Positions 14,816 through 22,792 of a stretch of DNA of 22,908 nt are shown here, piece after piece. Source of the stretch: a virus; IMG/VR virus record IMGVR_UViG_3300017719_000225, positions 1 through 22,908 of that record; one strand, given 5' to 3'. The position numbers and the translations under genes are program-made. The notes under the pieces were generated by a model. That model was not told the DNA's origin. It worked only from the letters and a program-made list of their open reading frames with translations, and searched no databases. The first letter of the stretch is position 1. Every line of letters begins with the position of its first letter.

Positions 14816-15574
14816 ATGACCGCAACTGTGACGTACCTTCATCCCCCGAAAGAAAGTGAGGCGGAGGACGAAGCAAGATGGGCAAACATCGCAGAGAACA
14901 TTCGCCACGCTGCGTCCCCAAAAAACTCCATCGACATCATCGACGTCCCCCTCCTCAACGAAAAAGTATCCGAACATTACGCCGAAGTCGTGAAGCGTTT
15001 ACGTCCCCATTGGATCAGCAGGGGGGATGGAACCTTCTATACAATAGGTGCGTCCACGTACAACGACCTCGTCATATCTGATGGCCACGCAAGTTACTAT
15101 CAGGTCGCAGAAGAGAACAACATTATCATCGCAAAGCACTTCACTCCCCTGCTCGATCTCGTCTACAAAGCCATAGAGAAATGCTTCAACCACAAAGTTG
15201 TCGAGTTGCCTATGGCTGGACTAACAGGCTTCCACATCTTCGGAGAGAATGCAGGCAAGCATCCAGATGGAGGCCACATACACACGGACGAACCCTTCCA
15301 ACGCATACTCTGGCCGGAGCCATTCGCGAACCCATTCAGCTACACACTGGCACTAGAATTACCTGACGGAAAGGGCGGACTTGATTATTGGGAAAACGGG
15401 GCAACGCAAAGAACATACTTACCCTACGAGATAGGACATCTCTATATACATGACGGCAGGTTTCCCCACCGGATCGCATCGGATCACATGCCCTCCAAAG
15501 AAAAACCCCGCATCACTTTACAGGGACACGGGGCTCTTTTGTTGGACACAAATACTATCGGTGTCTATTTTTGA
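14816..15574 (+). CDS. 2OG-Fe(II) oxygenase
   Basis: 252 residues. GGHIHTDEPF gives the H156-x-D158 pair, FPHRI the distal H218, and PRITLQGHG the 2-oxoglutarate-binding R232: a complete set for an Fe(II)/2-oxoglutarate dioxygenase. About 140 residues lie before the catalytic core. The start ATG is one base after the endolysin stop. The substrate is unknown, and it is not close to any base-modifying family that I can name. Placed after lysis genes and beside the attachment site, it may be a moron or a late-expressed modifying enzyme. A weak terminator-like stem (CCCCG at 15506-15510, CGGGG at 15529-15533, then T-rich) lies inside its 3' end. Confidence 0.85.
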   Translation: MTATVTYLHPPKESEAEDEARWANIAENIRHAASPKNSIDIIDVPLLNEKVSEHYAEVVKRLRPHWISRGDGTFYTIGASTYNDLVISDGHASYYQVAEENNIIIAKHFTPLLDLVYKAIEKCFNHKVVELPMAGLTGFHIFGENAGKHPDGGHIHTDEPFQRILWPEPFANPFSYTLALELPDGKGGLDYWENGATQRTYLPYEIGHLYIHDGRFPHRIASDHMPSKEKPRITLQGHGALLLDTNTIGVYF

Positions 15575-15717
15575 GACGCAATGTAAGCCTCTTTAAACCC
15601 TTCAATTAAATCCCGCACCTCTTCGAGTTCATCATGTTCACGACCTTGAGGCATGGCCTTAATGTTGGTCGTTAAAGTGCAGATTAAGGTGTCATATGTG
15701 TGTGTCATAAGTGACAT
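15565..15717 (-). CDS. Possible small protein in attP region, function unknown
   Basis: A frame of 116 codons runs leftward from 15912, but its first third is the translated tRNA-like segment and its promoter and so is not believable as protein. The C-terminal part, from an ATG at 15717, gives 50 residues ending in HDELEEVRDLIEGFKEAYIASQK, which reads like a real helix. No good ribosome site precedes the ATG. It overlaps the oxygenase stop by 10 bases in the opposite direction. It might be translated from the RNA that starts at the tRNA promoter. I do not recognise it. Confidence 0.3.
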   Translation of the reverse strand: MSLMTHTYDTLICTLTTNIKAMPQGREHDELEEVRDLIEGFKEAYIASQK

Positions 15718-15828
15718 ATTGGGACTTGCGATAACTATTACGGGGTTATTCCAGTCAACCAGTGCCACCCTGATACGTCTAAAAGGTGTCAGAAGTCTCT
15801 CAAATAGCGTTCCCCGTGCCTTCTCAAT

Positions 15829-15869
15829 CCTTAGCAGGGGCGCGCCTTCAGCCACTCGGCCACTTCTCC
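15829..15869 (-). other. attP: Candidate attP core: 5' half of tRNA-Ser(GCU)
   Basis: Read on the minus strand, 15869 to 15829 begins GGAGAAGTGGCCGAG and ends at the anticodon loop CTGCTAA followed by GG. This gives the acceptor 5' arm, D arm and the 5' anticodon stem (CGCCC) with anticodon GCT of a bacterial tRNA-Ser. After two bases of the 3' anticodon stem the similarity stops, and there is no variable arm, T arm or acceptor 3' end. A tRNA half 112 bases from an integrase gene is the standard mark of an attachment site, with exchange at or near the anticodon loop. Most attP sites keep the 3' half; here it is the 5' half. Confidence 0.75.
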
Positions 15870-15883
15870 TTTGATTCGCGTGC

Positions 15884-15912
15884 ATTGTATTGCCTCTCTT
15901 ATTGGTTTTCAA
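15884..15912 (-). promoter_or_regulatory. tRNA-type promoter carried at attP
   Basis: Minus strand: TTGAAA (15907-15912), 17 bases, TACAAT (15884-15889); each hexamer matches 5 of 6. The next bases, GCACGCG, are a GC-rich discriminator like those of stringently controlled rRNA and tRNA promoters. The predicted start, near 15877, is about 8 bases before the first base of the tRNA half. Confidence 0.7.
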
Positions 15913-15980
15913 TTTGTAATTCAGTTTACTTCTTCATTCGTTGTGTGTGACCACGCTTTCGACACCTAATAGCGTGTGTG

Positions 15981-17000
15981 TCACGCACTACGTTGATACA
16001 AACTAGCTATCGCGTCCACCTTGGTGGAGTCAGGCGGGATCATGTAGCGCATGACCATAGCCAAACTACTGTGACCCAACAGGTCAGCGACCACTCTTTC
16101 TCTCACACCATTCTTGAGTAACTCAGTGGCAAAGGTGCGCCTCAAATCATGGGGCTGGAAATCTTTTATCCCAACCAAACTCATTAGGCTTTTGACTGCC
16201 TTGCCTGCACCTCGGCTATCCTGCCAAGCACTCCACACCTTTTTACTTCTGGCTTGAGTTGATCGCCATTGGATCATCAGGTCTTGCATATTTTCGTGCA
16301 AAGGCACACGTCTGGCCACCTTCTTCTGGCCTTTGGTTTTGCGGGTATGAAGGGTGACAAAAGGCTGATCAACATCCAACTCCACATCATCCCAACTCAA
16401 CGCAACAGCCTCACCTATCCGAGCACCAGTCGCTAACAAGAAGCACGTCATGCAATATCTTGCTGTAATTCCACTGCCATTAGGGTCACCACATTGTCCA
16501 TTGAATGCCGCCAACTCTTCTTGGTCAAGACACCTCGTCCTTGGCTCTCCATCAGCAGGTCGATCAACATCTGGCACCATCGTTATCAACCCACGCTTTT
16601 TAGCATGACGCAACACTGGCATCAGCGCATTAACCTCTCGCCGTATCGTTGCGCTTTGAACCTCCGTATATCGGACATCGATATACTCAGCAATAAAATG
16701 CTGATCCATTTTAAGCAGTGGCACTTCACCCCACATCTCATTAAACATATTCAGATAACGCAAGGTGCTCTCGCTGGTAAACTCTCTCCTCTTTAGGTAG
16801 CTTGCCATCGCAAAACTAAATACCTCTCCCTCCTTCGTTGAGGCATCAGCAGAATTGCCATTGATCAACTCATTCTCTATGCGCAGTCTCACTCTCTGGG
16901 CTTCCATCTGATCATCAGTTTTCGCACTAACCCTGATGCGCTTGCCCTCGTAAAAACCAGTGACGTACCACGTCTTTCCACGTCTCTTCAACTGCAACAT
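15981..17000 (-). CDS. int: Tyrosine recombinase / phage integrase
   Basis: 339 residues with the full tyrosine-recombinase set: ATGARIGEAVALSW (catalytic Arg, about 193), a beta-hairpin Lys in TRKTKGQKKVARR, HDLRRTFATELL (His-x-x-Arg, about 284-287), GHSSLAMVMRYM (His about 311, nucleophile Tyr about 319). The N-terminal 60 residues are the small arm-binding domain (KRRGKTWYVTGFYEGKRIR) and 65-150 the core-binding SAM-like domain. Length is normal. It starts three bases after the stop of the LuxR-like gene, and its ribosome site AGGAGT lies inside that gene's last codons, so it is translationally coupled to it. No excisionase gene is recognisable in the window. The tRNA-Ser half 112 bases downstream is its probable substrate. 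Confidence 0.95.
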   Translation of the reverse strand: MLQLKRRGKTWYVTGFYEGKRIRVSAKTDDQMEAQRVRLRIENELINGNSADASTKEGEVFSFAMASYLKRREFTSESTLRYLNMFNEMWGEVPLLKMDQHFIAEYIDVRYTEVQSATIRREVNALMPVLRHAKKRGLITMVPDVDRPADGEPRTRCLDQEELAAFNGQCGDPNGSGITARYCMTCFLLATGARIGEAVALSWDDVELDVDQPFVTLHTRKTKGQKKVARRVPLHENMQDLMIQWRSTQARSKKVWSAWQDSRGAGKAVKSLMSLVGIKDFQPHDLRRTFATELLKNGVRERVVADLLGHSSLAMVMRYMIPPDSTKVDAIASLYQRSA

Positions 17001-17003
17001 AAA

Positions 17004-17432
17004 TTAACTCCTGTATATTTTAGAGTGAGGGTCTTTTGTTATAGGCCCACGTCCATATGTCTCACCCCAATCCTTCGGTATGCCTCCGCTCATAAGCAAG
17101 TATTGATTTGATGTAACAGATTCCCACTCAGACACTGCCGCCATAACGATCTGCGAGCGGGTGCTCACGCGATACTTTCTGGCGATCCCTCTGACGTGTA
17201 CCTTTGCGGTATTCTCCGTAACGTTAAACCTCTTTGCTATCTGTGCATTACTGCAACCAAGCATGATCATCTGTAATGCAACATGTTGTTTGGCAGTTAA
17301 TCTCGGGAGAATGGCCTTGACCATATCCTCGTGCTGTACTTGATGACCTTGCCCAAGTACTAGCCTGTCTACCATTCTCTCTAGGCTCTCGATTCTCCCT
17401 TCGAGCCTATTCACTTTGTCTTCAAGTTTCAT
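17004..17432 (-). CDS. LuxR/GerE-type HTH regulator without sensor domain
   Basis: 142 residues. Residues 1-30 are a coiled coil (LEDKVNRLEGRIESLERMVDRL), suggesting dimerisation. Residues about 44-100 form a GerE/LuxR helix-turn-helix: LTAKQHVALQMIMLGCSNAQIAKRF, then NVTENTAKVHVRGIARKYRV. There is no autoinducer-binding or receiver domain. AGGAGGAG lies six bases before the ATG, an excellent ribosome site. It is co-transcribed with int from a near-consensus promoter (17493-17521) and coupled to it. It is plausibly the switch for integration or excision, acting on its own promoter. How it would sense anything is not visible. The C-terminal tail (about 105-142) is not recognised. Confidence 0.85.
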   Translation of the reverse strand: MKLEDKVNRLEGRIESLERMVDRLVLGQGHQVQHEDMVKAILPRLTAKQHVALQMIMLGCSNAQIAKRFNVTENTAKVHVRGIARKYRVSTRSQIVMAAVSEWESVTSNQYLLMSGGIPKDWGETYGRGPITKDPHSKIYRS

Positions 17433-17492: not shown

Positions 17493-17521
17493 AATATAAA
17501 GGGGAGTGCATTGGATGTCAA
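17493..17521 (-). promoter_or_regulatory. Promoter of LuxR-like/int operon
   Basis: Minus strand: perfect TTGACA (17516-17521), 17 bases, TATATT (17493-17498). It predicts a start near 17486 and a leader of about 54 bases. A second TATAAT at 17447-17452 lies on the ribosome site and lacks a -35. The 199-base gap 17433-17631 holds this promoter, the inverted repeat at 17541-17565 and a small GCGTAA-T-TTACGC repeat at 17568-17580. Confidence 0.65.
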
Positions 17522-17631: not shown

Positions 17632-18129
17632 TTACGTATCTGCCGTAGAAGGCGCTTGCTTCCAACCATTTATTAACAGCGCATGTCGTTGACCAGACCA
17701 CACCCTAGACACTCTATGCCAAACGCCATTGTCCAGAACAACACACCTATTAAACCTCGGAGAGATACGTTCAACCTCTGTCCTCGTGTCATCTCCGCAC
17801 TCCATCTCGAGGAACCCACCCCATATCTGATGTGGTATCACATAAAGAATACAAGACCAGTCTGCTGGCACAAGAACATCAGCGCCCTCGTCCTTGTCCA
17901 CATGCCAAGGGCCAGCGTCATTCTCGGTCACGTTAAACCAGTACTCGAATCCACACATACCTTGAACATGGAATTGATCACAACAAAAACGAATAATCTC
18001 ATGCACTCGGTTGCCCTCGGTCACTCCGTCCCACCACCTGATGCCATTGTTCCTAAGCAAATTTATCGTGGGGTCATTATCCAACCCGTCGAGCAGCGCA
18101 TCCGGCAGGAAGTTGTCCACCACATTCAT
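17632..18129 (-). CDS. 2OG-Fe(II) oxygenase
   Basis: 165 residues from the ATG at 18129, which overlaps the upstream stop as TAATG and gives the usual MNVVDNFLPDALL opening; an in-frame GTG at 18141 is four codons earlier and less likely. PWHVDKDEG gives H76-x-D78, the strand SCILYVIPHQIWGGFLEM the beta-helix core with its Gly-Gly, GVWHRVS the distal H138, and GQRHALLINGW the R148. This is a complete Fe(II)/2-oxoglutarate site. It is the last gene of the leftward cobS-cobT operon and the third member of this superfamily in the window. The three are too different to be recent duplicates. Substrate unknown. Confidence 0.87.
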   Translation of the reverse strand: MNVVDNFLPDALLDGLDNDPTINLLRNNGIRWWDGVTEGNRVHEIIRFCCDQFHVQGMCGFEYWFNVTENDAGPWHVDKDEGADVLVPADWSCILYVIPHQIWGGFLEMECGDDTRTEVERISPRFNRCVVLDNGVWHRVSRVWSGQRHALLINGWKQAPSTADT

Positions 18130-18605
18130 TATGCCCACCACTCTGGCGTCTCGCCCCTATCCCATCGTGCGAAGTGTGCCTTGGCTCCCCGGTAGTACTC
18201 CCGGTAGCTGTGGACAGCATCACTACACTTGTACTCGTCGGGCATTGCCAACACCCAATCAGTCATCTCGTCCTTGTCGAAGGCGTCCCGCAGAACTCGA
18301 ACGGGGACATCTTTCATACTCCAGATGGCGTCCGCACTCTTGTGCGTGCGCCCGAATCGCTTCTCATATTCCAAACCTAACGCCATACCCAACGCCATCG
18401 TCCACATATAATTAGCAAAACTCTGGCCTGCCCACACAGTACAAGGATGGTTCTTATGGGTACTCTTATAGGCTCCCTTCAACCCCTTCTCGTTCAACAC
18501 AGTGCTCATTATTTGAGCAGTCTCAAGTACCATCTTTGGTACGTGCTTATCACAGTGCATCTCTGCCGCTCTCAATGGCGACGCATCCAGTACAAATATA
18601 TTCAC
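18129..18605 (-). CDS. Conserved phage protein with HCDKH and HKNHPC motifs, function unknown
   Basis: 158 residues from a GTG at 18605, with AGGAGA five bases upstream and GTGA overlap with the previous stop. The opening MNIFVLDASPLRAAEMHCDKH, the line VPKMVLETAQIMSTVL and THKNHPCTVWAGQSFANYMW are strongly reminiscent of a family I know from many phages and some bacteria, usually annotated as hypothetical. The clustered His, Cys, Asp and Lys (HCDKH; HKNHPC) look like an active site or metal site. I cannot name the reaction; glycosylase-like labels that I have seen for it are unproven. It sits between three tiny genes and the oxygenase in one operon. Confidence 0.78.
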   Translation of the reverse strand: MNIFVLDASPLRAAEMHCDKHVPKMVLETAQIMSTVLNEKGLKGAYKSTHKNHPCTVWAGQSFANYMWTMALGMALGLEYEKRFGRTHKSADAIWSMKDVPVRVLRDAFDKDEMTDWVLAMPDEYKCSDAVHSYREYYRGAKAHFARWDRGETPEWWA

Positions 18606-18971: not shown

Positions 18972-19138
18972 CTGGCTTTCCTCTCATGCTTGCGTACAAT
19001 CCGTCCGATCTCTGCGTAGTCATACTTGTCCACGCGCCTTGTCTTAACCTCGTAACCAACCTCGAACCAGAAACCCCAAGGCCACACTCGGTCGGTCACG
19101 CCAAACCATTTGGTATACACCTTTGCCTTACGCTGCAT
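18947..19138 (-). CDS. Small basic Trp-rich protein, function unknown
   Basis: 63 residues from ATG 19138. It is basic and aromatic: KWFGVTDRVWPWGFWFEVGYEVKTRRVDKYDY, then a Lys/Arg-rich helix (RIVRKHERKARWQSKAR). The first part reads as a small beta sheet, the second as a nucleic-acid-binding or amphipathic helix. It overlaps the CobT-like gene by 11 bases and follows it directly, so it may be a partner of the CobS/CobT pair. No family recognised. Confidence 0.6.
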   Translation of the reverse strand: MQRKAKVYTKWFGVTDRVWPWGFWFEVGYEVKTRRVDKYDYAEIGRIVRKHERKARWQSKARV

Positions 19139-21113
19139 TGGTCGCTACCTCCTTGGCGTCCACCTTGAACTTCTGTCCGAGCAACATACTGGCAACCTGC
19201 TTCATGACCTTGCCGCTCATCTCATCAAGGCTGTCCACCTGAACGCTATGGCTGTAGTACCTGTCCACATCCGTCTTGATTCCGAACCCGACCAACTCGA
19301 TATGCCTCTCAATATCAGCGCATACATTCTTGAGACGAGACCTCTCAGCATCCTCATTCGTACCCACTGGCTCACCATCGCTGAACACAAACATAATGTT
19401 GCGACTCTCGTGGCGACGATCTACATAGGCTTGCTTGATATACATCAGCGAATCACCATCAGTATTCCCTGAACCCACGAGCATTTCGTAAGCGGCAATC
19501 TGGTGCTTGGTCTGGCGTAACGACTCGTCGTAATCCTTGAGCAGGTACGTGGACAAACAGTGTGACCTACCCTCGACATGCTGATGGTTGCGAACGCTAT
19601 TGTTGTATGCTCTGGTGTTGTTATCGTTGTGGGCGCGAGTATTAAACGCTGTCACCGCATACGGAATACCAACCTTCTCGAACACCTCGCCCATAGCAAT
19701 CGCTGACTGCATTGCAAGCTGACATTTGGAATGTCCCATGCTCCCACTGGCATCAATGCAAAGCATCACACAGGTATCCATGTCCTCGGCTGGTGTCCTC
19801 TTGCGATACACACTGGTGTCACCGCTCACTGCTCTCGATAACCTACGACTATCAAGTGTCCCTTCCTCATAGCCTGACCGCCATGACCTGTCCTGCTTGG
19901 CAATCAAAGCCCTCTCGAGATTGCGTCGCATCTTGTTCATGTGACTGCCAATCTGATTGCGGGTCATGTTGTAGGCTCCATATCTCTTGGCCGCCTCAAT
20001 GCTATCTTGGGTGTGCCTGCTCCAGTTGCCTGCCTTCTCGTGGACATCGTACTTGCGACCATGAGCAACATAAGAGCCACCGCTTGCCTCTTTGTTCTGC
20101 ACAATGTTTTGCATGGCCTTATCAAGATTTGGGTCATACGCTTGCTTGGGCTTGTCAACATCGAACCCATGCCCCGCAGACTTCTGCACCTGCTTCTTGT
20201 GCTCACTGTCCTGACCATCAGCCTGAGTACCCTGATCATCTCTATTGTCACCCGAGCCCTCAGTGCCATCCTCTTTCTCTGGCTCACCATCACCCTCGCC
20301 ACCGCTCATGTCCTCGGCTTTGTCATCAGCGTTCTCACCCTGATTCTGCTCGGCATCGTCAGCTCCAGAGCTGTCAGCTCCAGTGTCATTGCTAGACTGA
20401 TTGCTGTCCTCGGACTCGTCCTCGCCTTCTTCGCTGCCACCCTGCTGCTCCTGCTGTTCCTCTTCCTTGCCTCGCTGGTCAAGCCCCCACTGCTTGCACA
20501 ACTCCTCGGATATATCCATGCACGCCTTGGTTGACTTGGCCTTGGACAACCTGTCCACAGCACCCTCAACCTCAGCCCTGACCTCGTCACTCAAGGTGTC
20601 TAGGCACTGCTGAATAGTCGGATCGTCGTAGCCCATGCGTCTGCGTCCCTCCCATGTGATCGCGACTGCACCTATCTCATCAAGCGTGGGTGGTGTGCCA
20701 TCCCAGTGATCAAGAAATAACTTGTTTGCCCACTGGCTTGTGGCCTCAAGGTTGCGCTTGGAGCCGGGATACTCTTGCGTGATCAGCCGCTCGATGCGGA
20801 CGTCCTCGAGTCCATTCGTGATAGGCATGAAGTGCTCGACTTGAGCCATCAACTCCTTGTACTTCTTGCGACGTCCCAACGAGAAGTTAGTGTGGCGTCC
20901 ATGTCCTGCTTCGTGATCAACGAACCCGCGAATGGTACGCACCTCATCTTCGTCGTAATCAACACCCAACGGAATCGTGGGCAGGTACACCGTCTTGCCA
21001 TTCGTCATGGCCTGATCACCACCGATCAGAACCTCAAGGTCTTGGTTCCTATAAAAGGTACGAGCATTAGCCGTTACCTCGTGTGTCAACTTGTCTCCGC
21101 TTATCTGTCTCAT
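19128..21113 (-). CDS. cobT: CobT-like VWA protein with HEAGH metal motif
   Basis: 661 residues. At 66-75, DHEAGHGRHT contains HExxH (H67, E68, H71), and 101-109 (GLEDVRIER) supplies acidic residues that could complete a zincin-like metal site. The segment up to about 120 resembles the CobT N-terminus. Residues about 215-310 are a very acidic low-complexity linker (runs of E, D, S, G, Q), as in CobT. The C-terminal VWA domain has a full MIDAS: LCIDASGSMG (DxSxS, about 453), the Thr in GNTDGDS (about 548) and FSDGEP (about 577). In bacteria CobT works with CobS and CobN to insert cobalt into corrin; here no CobN is present. It overlaps the CobS-like gene by ATGA. The metal-dependent function is inferred. 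Confidence 0.85.
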   Translation of the reverse strand: MRQISGDKLTHEVTANARTFYRNQDLEVLIGGDQAMTNGKTVYLPTIPLGVDYDEDEVRTIRGFVDHEAGHGRHTNFSLGRRKKYKELMAQVEHFMPITNGLEDVRIERLITQEYPGSKRNLEATSQWANKLFLDHWDGTPPTLDEIGAVAITWEGRRRMGYDDPTIQQCLDTLSDEVRAEVEGAVDRLSKAKSTKACMDISEELCKQWGLDQRGKEEEQQEQQGGSEEGEDESEDSNQSSNDTGADSSGADDAEQNQGENADDKAEDMSGGEGDGEPEKEDGTEGSGDNRDDQGTQADGQDSEHKKQVQKSAGHGFDVDKPKQAYDPNLDKAMQNIVQNKEASGGSYVAHGRKYDVHEKAGNWSRHTQDSIEAAKRYGAYNMTRNQIGSHMNKMRRNLERALIAKQDRSWRSGYEEGTLDSRRLSRAVSGDTSVYRKRTPAEDMDTCVMLCIDASGSMGHSKCQLAMQSAIAMGEVFEKVGIPYAVTAFNTRAHNDNNTRAYNNSVRNHQHVEGRSHCLSTYLLKDYDESLRQTKHQIAAYEMLVGSGNTDGDSLMYIKQAYVDRRHESRNIMFVFSDGEPVGTNEDAERSRLKNVCADIERHIELVGFGIKTDVDRYYSHSVQVDSLDEMSGKVMKQVASMLLGQKFKVDAKEVATNAA

Positions 21114-22792
21114 ACAGTTCCTCCAATCACTCGGCTCGCCAGTCCCTCAAGCGCCTGCTTGTCGTCACTGTCTGCCGCATTCAATATCGAATGCTTCAAG
21201 GCAAGCATCATCCATCCACTGCCTGACCCGAAGCACCTCTTGTAGTCCACCGCACTGGCCGCAAATGCCAAGGTATCTCTGGGCGAACACGCCAACGTGA
21301 CATCACTCTGCTTGAACGCTGTCCTGTGCTCGGTTGCATACCTCGCAATAGTCTTGCAGTCATCCTTGTCCAGAGCAGGATTCTTGTCATGCAACAACTC
21401 AGCCTCTTCATCCTCGGTCATGTAATCAACCTCGATGTAAGGCTTGAACCTGTTCACGAATGCTGTACCCAAAGCCCGTGTCCCCGAGTACAATCCTGTC
21501 TCGTCACCACGCCCATTGGTATTCGCTGTTGCGATCATGCGGAAGTGCTGATGCGGTACGACTGTGCGTCCACCATCCTCGAGTAACATGAACCCCTTGC
21601 CCTCAAGCAATCGCTGTAGGACAAAGCCCATGTCTGGCCTCGCCGCATCGACCTCATCGAGCAGTAGCAGACAGGGCTGTTGCATTGCCATCGGGATAAT
21701 CCCGTCCACAAACTCAGTCACTGTCTTGCCATCGCTGTCAGTGCGAATAACTTCTCGACCAACCAGTTCACCACGAGTAATGTCACTGTCCAGATTGAGC
21801 CTGAACACTGGCAACTTGAGGCGTGCATACACTTGCTCGGCAAGCGTTGTCTTGCCAGTACCAGTATGTCCACGCAACCACGGGATACGATTGTTCACAA
21901 CAGCAAGCAACACTGGGATCAGTGTCTCGGGGTCAAACACATAAGCTGTGTCCACATCAGGAACATAAGGGTGATCGTGATCCCACACCCCATGAGGCAG
22001 ATCGAAGTCGAACATCGAGCGGTCACTAGCACCCACATCGAACAGGTCATACGCCTTGGCAATCTCGACCTTGCCATCAGGCACATCACCGCTACCCTTC
22101 ACGCTGACGGGAGCCAACGTAGCCTTGGATGCCATGTCTATCTGGCGCTTCATTGATTCGATGGTTGCGTCCTTGTCTCTCAGGTCGCCTTTCAATACAA
22201 CTAGGTTATCCAGAGTCTCTCTGAGATCGCTGTAGTCAGGCAGTCCCACTGTGTCGAGCAGTCCGTTAAGCGCAGTCTCAATACCTGCGGCAGGCGCTGA
22301 TGCCTTGGACTTACTAGCAGTCTTAGTCGGTTTCATGTTTGCGCTGGCGGCACAGTCAATACCTAACGTCTCCGCATACGATATGATGTCCATGAAGTAG
22401 GCTTCATCCCAATCCCTGTGCATACCAAACACCTTGCCCCGTGATCCTTCTGCACACTTGTGTGGGTACTTCATTGCCGTATGCCAAAGCTCGAGCTTGC
22501 CCCTTGACTCTTCACCAACGCGACGGCTGGTTTCGTCGCCGTCAAGCATGATGCTCAATGCTGACACCAACATACTGTGAGGCTTACCAAACAAACTGGC
22601 GATACCTCGTGGTGTAAGTCGGGGTTCGGATAACTGATGCTTCCACTCTCCCTCATTCCATAACAGTTGAATGTCCATACGTGTATCACCAATAGCCTCA
22701 GCCAATGCCTTGCGAAAAGTGTTGCGGCGTTGCTCTGGCGTGAGTTCCGGCTGGAATGCTTCTTTGAATAACTCGATAGATTTTGTAACCAT
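21110..22792 (-). CDS. cobS: CobS-like MoxR-family AAA+ ATPase
   Basis: 560 residues. The C-terminal half aligns by eye with CobS: FDPETLIPVLLAVVNNR, Walker A GHTGTGKTTL (about 304-313), FRLNLDSDITRGELVGRE, Walker B LLLLDEVDAARPD (about 374-386), ANTNGRGDETGLYSGT (about 421-436) and FVNRFKPYIEVDY (arginine finger region). The N-terminal 230-280 residues are extra compared with bacterial CobS of about 330 residues; they are helical with an AT/KP-rich linker near 150-165, and their role is unknown. MoxR-type ATPases remodel a VWA partner, here the CobT-like protein encoded next. First gene of the leftward operon, behind promoter and operator O3; AAAGG lies about ten bases before the ATG. Confidence 0.88.
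   Translation of the reverse strand: MVTKSIELFKEAFQPELTPEQRRNTFRKALAEAIGDTRMDIQLLWNEGEWKHQLSEPRLTPRGIASLFGKPHSMLVSALSIMLDGDETSRRVGEESRGKLELWHTAMKYPHKCAEGSRGKVFGMHRDWDEAYFMDIISYAETLGIDCAASANMKPTKTASKSKASAPAAGIETALNGLLDTVGLPDYSDLRETLDNLVVLKGDLRDKDATIESMKRQIDMASKATLAPVSVKGSGDVPDGKVEIAKAYDLFDVGASDRSMFDFDLPHGVWDHDHPYVPDVDTAYVFDPETLIPVLLAVVNNRIPWLRGHTGTGKTTLAEQVYARLKLPVFRLNLDSDITRGELVGREVIRTDSDGKTVTEFVDGIIPMAMQQPCLLLLDEVDAARPDMGFVLQRLLEGKGFMLLEDGGRTVVPHQHFRMIATANTNGRGDETGLYSGTRALGTAFVNRFKPYIEVDYMTEDEEAELLHDKNPALDKDDCKTIARYATEHRTAFKQSDVTLACSPRDTLAFAASAVDYKRCFGSGSGWMMLALKHSILNAADSDDKQALEGLASRVIGGTV

Follow-up and report, generated by a model that had tools for sequence, protein, structure and literature searches.

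A predicted attachment site built from half a host tRNA-Ser(GCU) gene and read through by a conserved phage gene

The DNA described here, referred to as the window, is the whole of the IMG/VR virus record IMGVR_UViG_3300017719_000225, a virus contig of 22,908 bases. It comes from a marine phage. Downstream of its tyrosine integrase gene (int) lies a 41-base segment identical to the 5' half of a bacterial tRNA-Ser(GCU) gene, and a phage gene for a protein of 106 amino acids (aa) runs straight through it. In our view, with a probability of about 0.72, this segment is a functional phage attachment site (attP) that rebuilds the host tRNA-Ser(GCU) gene while splitting the 106-aa gene. A 5'-half attP at which host tRNA sequence encodes the N-terminal part of a conserved phage gene appears to be new; we did not find it described, in a search that left most of the subscription literature outside. 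If true, it would provide a second way, beside integration-dependent immunity, of tying the integration event to phage gene expression.

The half-tRNA core and its integrase

The elements of the proposed attachment site are as follows (nt, nucleotides; bp, base pairs).

15829..15869, minus strand: attP core, 41 bp identical to nt 1-41 of the host tRNA-Ser(GCU)
15981..17000, minus strand: tyrosine integrase, 339 aa (Pfam PF00589, 6.8e-27; alignment)
15974..15983, minus strand: TGACACACAC, candidate arm-type integrase site on the P side, overlapping the int stop (repeat count)
15698..15707, minus strand: TGACACACAC, candidate arm-type site on the P' side, within the 106-aa gene (repeat count)

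An earlier reading, made from the sequence alone, had taken these 41 bases for the 5' half of a tRNA-Ser(GCU) that ends two bases after the anticodon loop, and had proposed a search for a host gene with an identical 5' half. Both points are borne out. The 41-mer (15869..15829, minus strand) is matched exactly in 28 GTDB contigs, and in 27 of them ARAGORN calls a complete tRNA-Ser(gct) beginning at base 1 of the 41-mer, the remaining one being cut by the contig end. The exact carriers are found in SAR92/Porticoccaceae, in Halieaceae and in a few other proteobacteria. Host and phage sequences part directly after core base 41, two bases past the anticodon loop CTGCTAA; the core thus has the extent seen in the 5'-half class of attachment sites, from tRNA nt 1 to the vicinity of the anticodon loop. 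ARAGORN finds no complete tRNA in the window, nor in the part that was read of a sister record, a 56,405-base IMG/VR contig that is 99.8% identical over the shared part. An Rfam search of the window and a blastn comparison of the region with named phages returned no match, and the half-tRNA RNA is predicted to fold no better than shuffled sequences (z -0.94).

The core also varies in step with the host gene. The relatives L032 and L033, which are 91% identical to the window, have GGAGAAATGG where the window core has GGAGAAGTGG. Within the host family, 29 genomes have a match, divided between a G7 form (14 genomes), an A7 form (14) and a third form (1), and the variant core of L032 and L033 is the A7 form. 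Since these one-base variants match tRNA forms of the host family, the phage cores follow natural host alleles. HTCC2207, a member of this family, has tRNA-Ser(GCT) in a single copy alongside TGA and GGA isoacceptors, so the gene should be essential. The window phage is CRP-810-like and probably has a SAR92-type gammaproteobacterial host, which would indicate SAR92 as host for a phage group so far reported from alphaproteobacteria.

The integrase retains all of its catalytic residues (R194/H284/R287/H310/Y319, the R-H-R-H-Y set), and the core begins 111 nt downstream of its stop. The 10-mer TGACACACAC occurs twice in the window, against 0.03 copies expected, and the two copies lie on either side of the core, near -114 and +162. 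The 56-kb sister record likewise has only two copies, which flank the core in the same way, and the diverged phage L101 has TGACACA on each side. By sequence, these repeats are candidate arm-type sites. Taken together, the exact core, its tracking of host alleles, the adjacent integrase and the rare flanking repeats make it very likely that the half-tRNA functions as a 5'-half attP.

A gene across the core and a putative promoter upstream of it

The features that overlap or adjoin the core are given below, together with those that bracket the operon to which it belongs.

15565..15885, minus strand: 106-aa gene, ATG at 15885-15883, codons 6-19 formed by the tRNA half (dN/dS, homologues)
15893..15898, minus strand: Shine-Dalgarno-like GAGAGG of the 106-aa gene (sequence; kept in L032 and L033)
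15907..15912, minus strand: -35-like TTGAAA (p about 0.001 by shuffling)
15884..15889, minus strand: -10-like TACAAT, overlapping the ATG of the 106-aa gene (sequence, sigma-70 matrix)
15877..15883, minus strand: GC-rich discriminator GCACGCG (stringent-type by analogy only)
15506..15525, minus strand: intrinsic terminator after the 106-aa gene (same hairpin by scan in L146 and L048)
17004..17432, minus strand: LuxR/GerE-type regulator, first gene of the operon (PF00196, 4.8e-10)
17493..17521, minus strand: operon promoter TTGACA-17-TATATT (sequence scan)

What the sequence-only reading had overlooked is that a conserved phage gene uses the core as coding sequence and that the -10 element lies across the ATG of this gene. 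Past the core, comparison of the window with its relatives gives a nonsynonymous rate (dN) of 0.04 and a synonymous rate (dS) of 0.29-0.55 (dN/dS about 0.1); the closer pair L146 and L174 is less clear (dN 0.04, dS 0.09). Judged by these substitution rates, the 106-aa gene is real and under purifying selection. Homologs in L048, L101 and L146/L174 cross the tRNA half in the frame that the window gene uses, making four diverged lineages with the window, and their products share the pattern M..(N)QRRGGRVAEGAPLLR, a variable stretch, and then YDTLI.VLD...DEL.ELRDTLV.M. The homology holds when the tRNA-encoded part is left out (7.9e-10 for the window and L048, 4e-5 for L048 and L101). The constraint begins right after the core, ahead of any downstream start codon, so translation must start upstream of or within the core. 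Because the frame used is the only stop-free frame of the half-tRNA, its being shared adds little. The weight lies on the arrangement, which is common to phages with integrases 44-50% identical and in which all four lineages retain an ATG and ribosome site ahead of the core.

In the AlphaFold model of the 106-aa protein only a C-terminal helical hairpin is confident, residues 1-54 having no confident structure. Searches found no match to a DNA-binding domain and no ssrA-like C terminus. A match to PDB entry 3jqh (E 4e-6), the helical neck of a lectin, was judged to be of the coiled-coil type rather than kinship. Kinship with a small gene located after attP in CRP-810 and in phages with a 3'-half core is suggested by gene order and not supported by profile comparison (hhalign E 0.058, probability 1%). 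As the gene is encoded with int and overlaps attP, our guess is that its product is a small helical protein in the control of establishment or excision.

The earlier reading had also placed a promoter, TTGAAA-17-TACAAT followed by GCACGCG, 14 nt upstream of the half-tRNA, and both its coordinates (15912-15884, minus strand) and its sequence are exact. It scores 11.6 bits with a sigma-70 weight matrix, a value that its own 80-nt upstream region did not reach in any of 1000 shufflings, and both hexamers are unchanged in L032 and L033. The same matrix test gives a weaker candidate, ATGAAA-17-TACAAT with an extended -10, in L101 (p 0.08) and p 0.014 for L143. The label 'stringent-type' is an analogy drawn from the GC-rich discriminator GCACGCG. 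We infer promoter activity from these matches and regard the strong dedicated promoter as a property of the window lineage.

The 106-aa gene is the third gene of an operon with the order LuxR-int-orf (orf, open reading frame), and one promoter and one terminator bracket all three genes on one strand, which suggests that they are cotranscribed. A TTGACA-type promoter is found at the equivalent place in all four lineages, L146, L048 and L147 among the phages in which it was seen.

Proposed switch and competing explanations

The integrase would recombine the 41-bp core with the host's one tRNA-Ser(GCU) gene, the exchange most probably falling within the anticodon loop. One junction would then consist of the end of int, TTGAAA-17-TACAAT, a 14-nt leader, the phage 5' half and the host 3' half, giving a complete tRNA gene at a junction of the phage leader GCACGCGAATCAAAGGAGAA with the host 3' half CTAAGGGYGTATACG. 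This rebuilt gene would have to be transcribed from phage DNA. The other junction would place the host tRNA promoter and 5' half in front of the body of the 106-aa gene. In the free phage the core would act as coding sequence, translated from the ATG at 15885 on the LuxR-int-orf message; integration would strip the ATG and ribosome site from the gene, and excision would restore both. Given conservative recombination, the structure of the junctions follows from the sequence, and the geometry leaves only phage-derived DNA ahead of the rebuilt tRNA. The earlier reading is supported in that a 5'-half, attP-like segment lies beside an intact integrase and recurs identically in the likely host family; since HTCC2207 has one tRNA-Ser(GCT) gene, a lysogen would rely on this phage DNA. 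The further suggestions of that reading, prophage control over the host tRNA and harm on prophage loss, are more tentative. That recombination takes place, that the promoter fires and that the gene is split as a form of regulation, not as a side effect, we infer. Tentatively, and with the odds leaning against it, we propose that the segment of about 84 bp at 15912-15829 is a reversible two-state switch, serving as gene start in the lytic or establishment phase and as promoter, leader and 5' half of an essential host tRNA gene in the lysogen; lysogeny would behead the small gene and so turn it off, and loss or damage of that prophage end would be lethal.

Several results weigh against a functional attP that splits a phage gene. 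The prophages that the sequence-only reading led one to expect at matching tRNA genes did not appear: an integrase-based search found no lysogen in 112 genomes of the host family, 294 of the host order or 385 of alphaproteobacteria. T7-like cyanophages offer a parallel, their integration having been shown by polymerase chain reaction (PCR) but no stable lysogens obtained (PMC8776855). Profile and structure searches gave the 106-aa protein no family match and no known function. In L048, L146, L050 and L053 the matrix and shuffles revealed no convincing sigma-70 promoter ahead of the core, by a test of low sensitivity, to judge from the many host tRNA-Ser genes that do not pass it. Possession of a dedicated tRNA promoter therefore does not hold throughout the group: the promoter is conserved in the close relatives L032 and L033 but not recognizable in two of the three other lineages of the same architecture.

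It is quite possible, with a chance only somewhat short of even, that the segment is an ordinary 5'-half attP in which the gene extends passively across the tRNA half and the splitting has no consequence. Frames 0 and 1 of the tRNA half hold stops, so any gene that crosses it must take the remaining frame; the lack of a confident AlphaFold structure for residues 1-54 agrees with such an extension, and L050 and L053 carry the 5' half, yet no gene crosses their core. Against this reading stand the upstream start and ribosome site, kept in four lineages whose integrases are only 44-50% identical, and the coding constraint, which sets in immediately past the core and ahead of every alternative start codon. 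The rebuilt tRNA might alternatively be made by read-through from the operon promoter at 17521 and not from TTGAAA/TACAAT. No terminator was found between int and the core, which share one strand, L048 and L146 lack a clear local promoter, and for pTN3-type elements the integrase promoter is believed to drive the rebuilt tRNAs (PMC8371274). We nevertheless consider read-through unlikely for the window lineage, where the local promoter is strong and correctly spaced for a tRNA leader, and int operons are normally silent in lysogens.

Less likely still is production of the 106-aa gene in both states, the prophage copy being transcribed from the host tRNA promoter and translated from a GTG at tRNA nt 15-17, for which GGAG at nt 1-4 would serve as the ribosome site. 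Every core does contain this in-frame GTG and Shine-Dalgarno-like tRNA 5' end, the gene body ends at a phage terminator, and part of the pTN3 integrase gene, int(C), could likewise be transcribed from a tRNA promoter (PMC8371274). The GTG and its spacing of 7-10 nt are weak, however, and each lineage has its own ATG with a Shine-Dalgarno-like sequence. A chance or decoy fragment that is no attachment site at all would account for the lack of lysogens in the genomes searched, but we give it hardly any credence in view of the exact 41-bp identity with allele tracking, the position next to int in many relatives and the rare flanking repeats.

Known systems, relatives and neighboring genes

The sequence-only reading had presented a 5'-half attP as a departure from the usual 3' half. 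Such sites are indeed rare, but they are not unprecedented. Every attP found in T7-like cyanophages matches the first half of tRNA-Leu (PMC8776855). P-SSP7 and S-TIP37 resemble the window in that about 39 bp corresponding to the first half of a tRNA lie just downstream of int on the same strand, in the order regulator-int-attP, and P-SSP7, P-SSP2 and P-SSP3 have a TATAAT upstream of the tRNA-Leu half, an element not evident in Synechococcus podoviruses. They differ from the window in using tRNA-Leu instead of tRNA-Ser, in having no long gene across the core and in belonging to a different phage family. A review of archaeal pTN3-type 5'-half integration calls the type seldom seen in bacteria (PMC8371274). 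As proposed for the window, these suicidal integrases use a tRNA 5' half as host attachment site (attB), the rebuilt tRNA is expressed from element DNA, and integration divides a protein gene, one part of which stays behind the tRNA promoter. In the archaeal elements int itself is divided, whereas in the bacterial phage of the window int would stay whole and a separate small gene would be split.

In the integration-dependent immunity of mycobacteriophages, attP lies inside a gene cotranscribed with int (PMC9262239). In BPs and other such phages, as proposed for the window, this gene is small, a tRNA is overlapped and integration remodels the gene. In the window, by contrast, the 5' end of the gene would be lost instead of the 3' end, the tRNA half is the 5' one, arm-like repeats are present, and the 106-aa gene does not look like a repressor that sheds a degradation tag when the phage integrates. 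In tRNA-dependent lysogeny (PMC10865867), the lysogen relies on the phage for an essential tRNA, as a lysogen of the window phage would, and CRP-810 itself, which is in the same phage family, resembles that system. In that system the phage supplies an entire tRNA that makes up for a broken host gene, whereas in the window the host gene would be rebuilt from a half, and no complete phage tRNA was found in the window or in the part of the sister record that was read. The dusA-specific islands (PMC4482086) similarly replace the 5' end and promoter of a host gene, but their target is protein-coding.

CRP-810 has been shown by PCR to integrate in tRNA-Thr via a 13-bp core (PMC11288001). IMG/VR relatives of the window integrase carry a tRNA-Ser(GCU) 5' half, a tRNA-Ser or tRNA-Thr 3' half, or a whole tRNA-Thr in opposite orientation (CRP-810 type). 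In the integrase tree, phages with an orf through the core form one clade (95/97) and 3'-half phages another (98/94), while L050 and L053 are further 5'-half branches. One integrase family offers a natural comparison, on one tree, of 5'-half, 3'-half and whole-tRNA ways to keep an essential tRNA. Most of the 3'-half phages (L052-L090) have a small gene after attP, and the family switches among tRNA solutions. In L145 (3950-4050) and L148 (3965-4060) the core and the small gene are lost together with int left intact, and int is followed directly by the final codons of that gene or by its terminator. The tRNA-Ser(GCU) 5' half is also found in two phages with only distantly related integrases (L137:3486-3526/L139:1-41 and L143:5071-5111), so the solution probably arose more than once. 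In L140 (9760-9860, minus strand), an incomplete tandem repeat of about the first 19 bases of a tRNA-Ser(GCT) lies ahead of that gene, perhaps left behind by 5'-half recombination.

The gene order CobS, CobT, LuxR, int, prim-pol is common to the window and CRP-810-type phages. Near the integration module, 17632-18141 of the window encodes a 2OG-Fe(II) oxygenase-like protein. The product of 18129-18605 matches a PHROG described as 'DNA binding protein', and its CRP-810 counterpart is annotated as an endonuclease V-type glycosylase. Further along, 19128-22792 holds a CobT-like VWA and CobS/MoxR-like AAA pair, which is also present in CRP-810.
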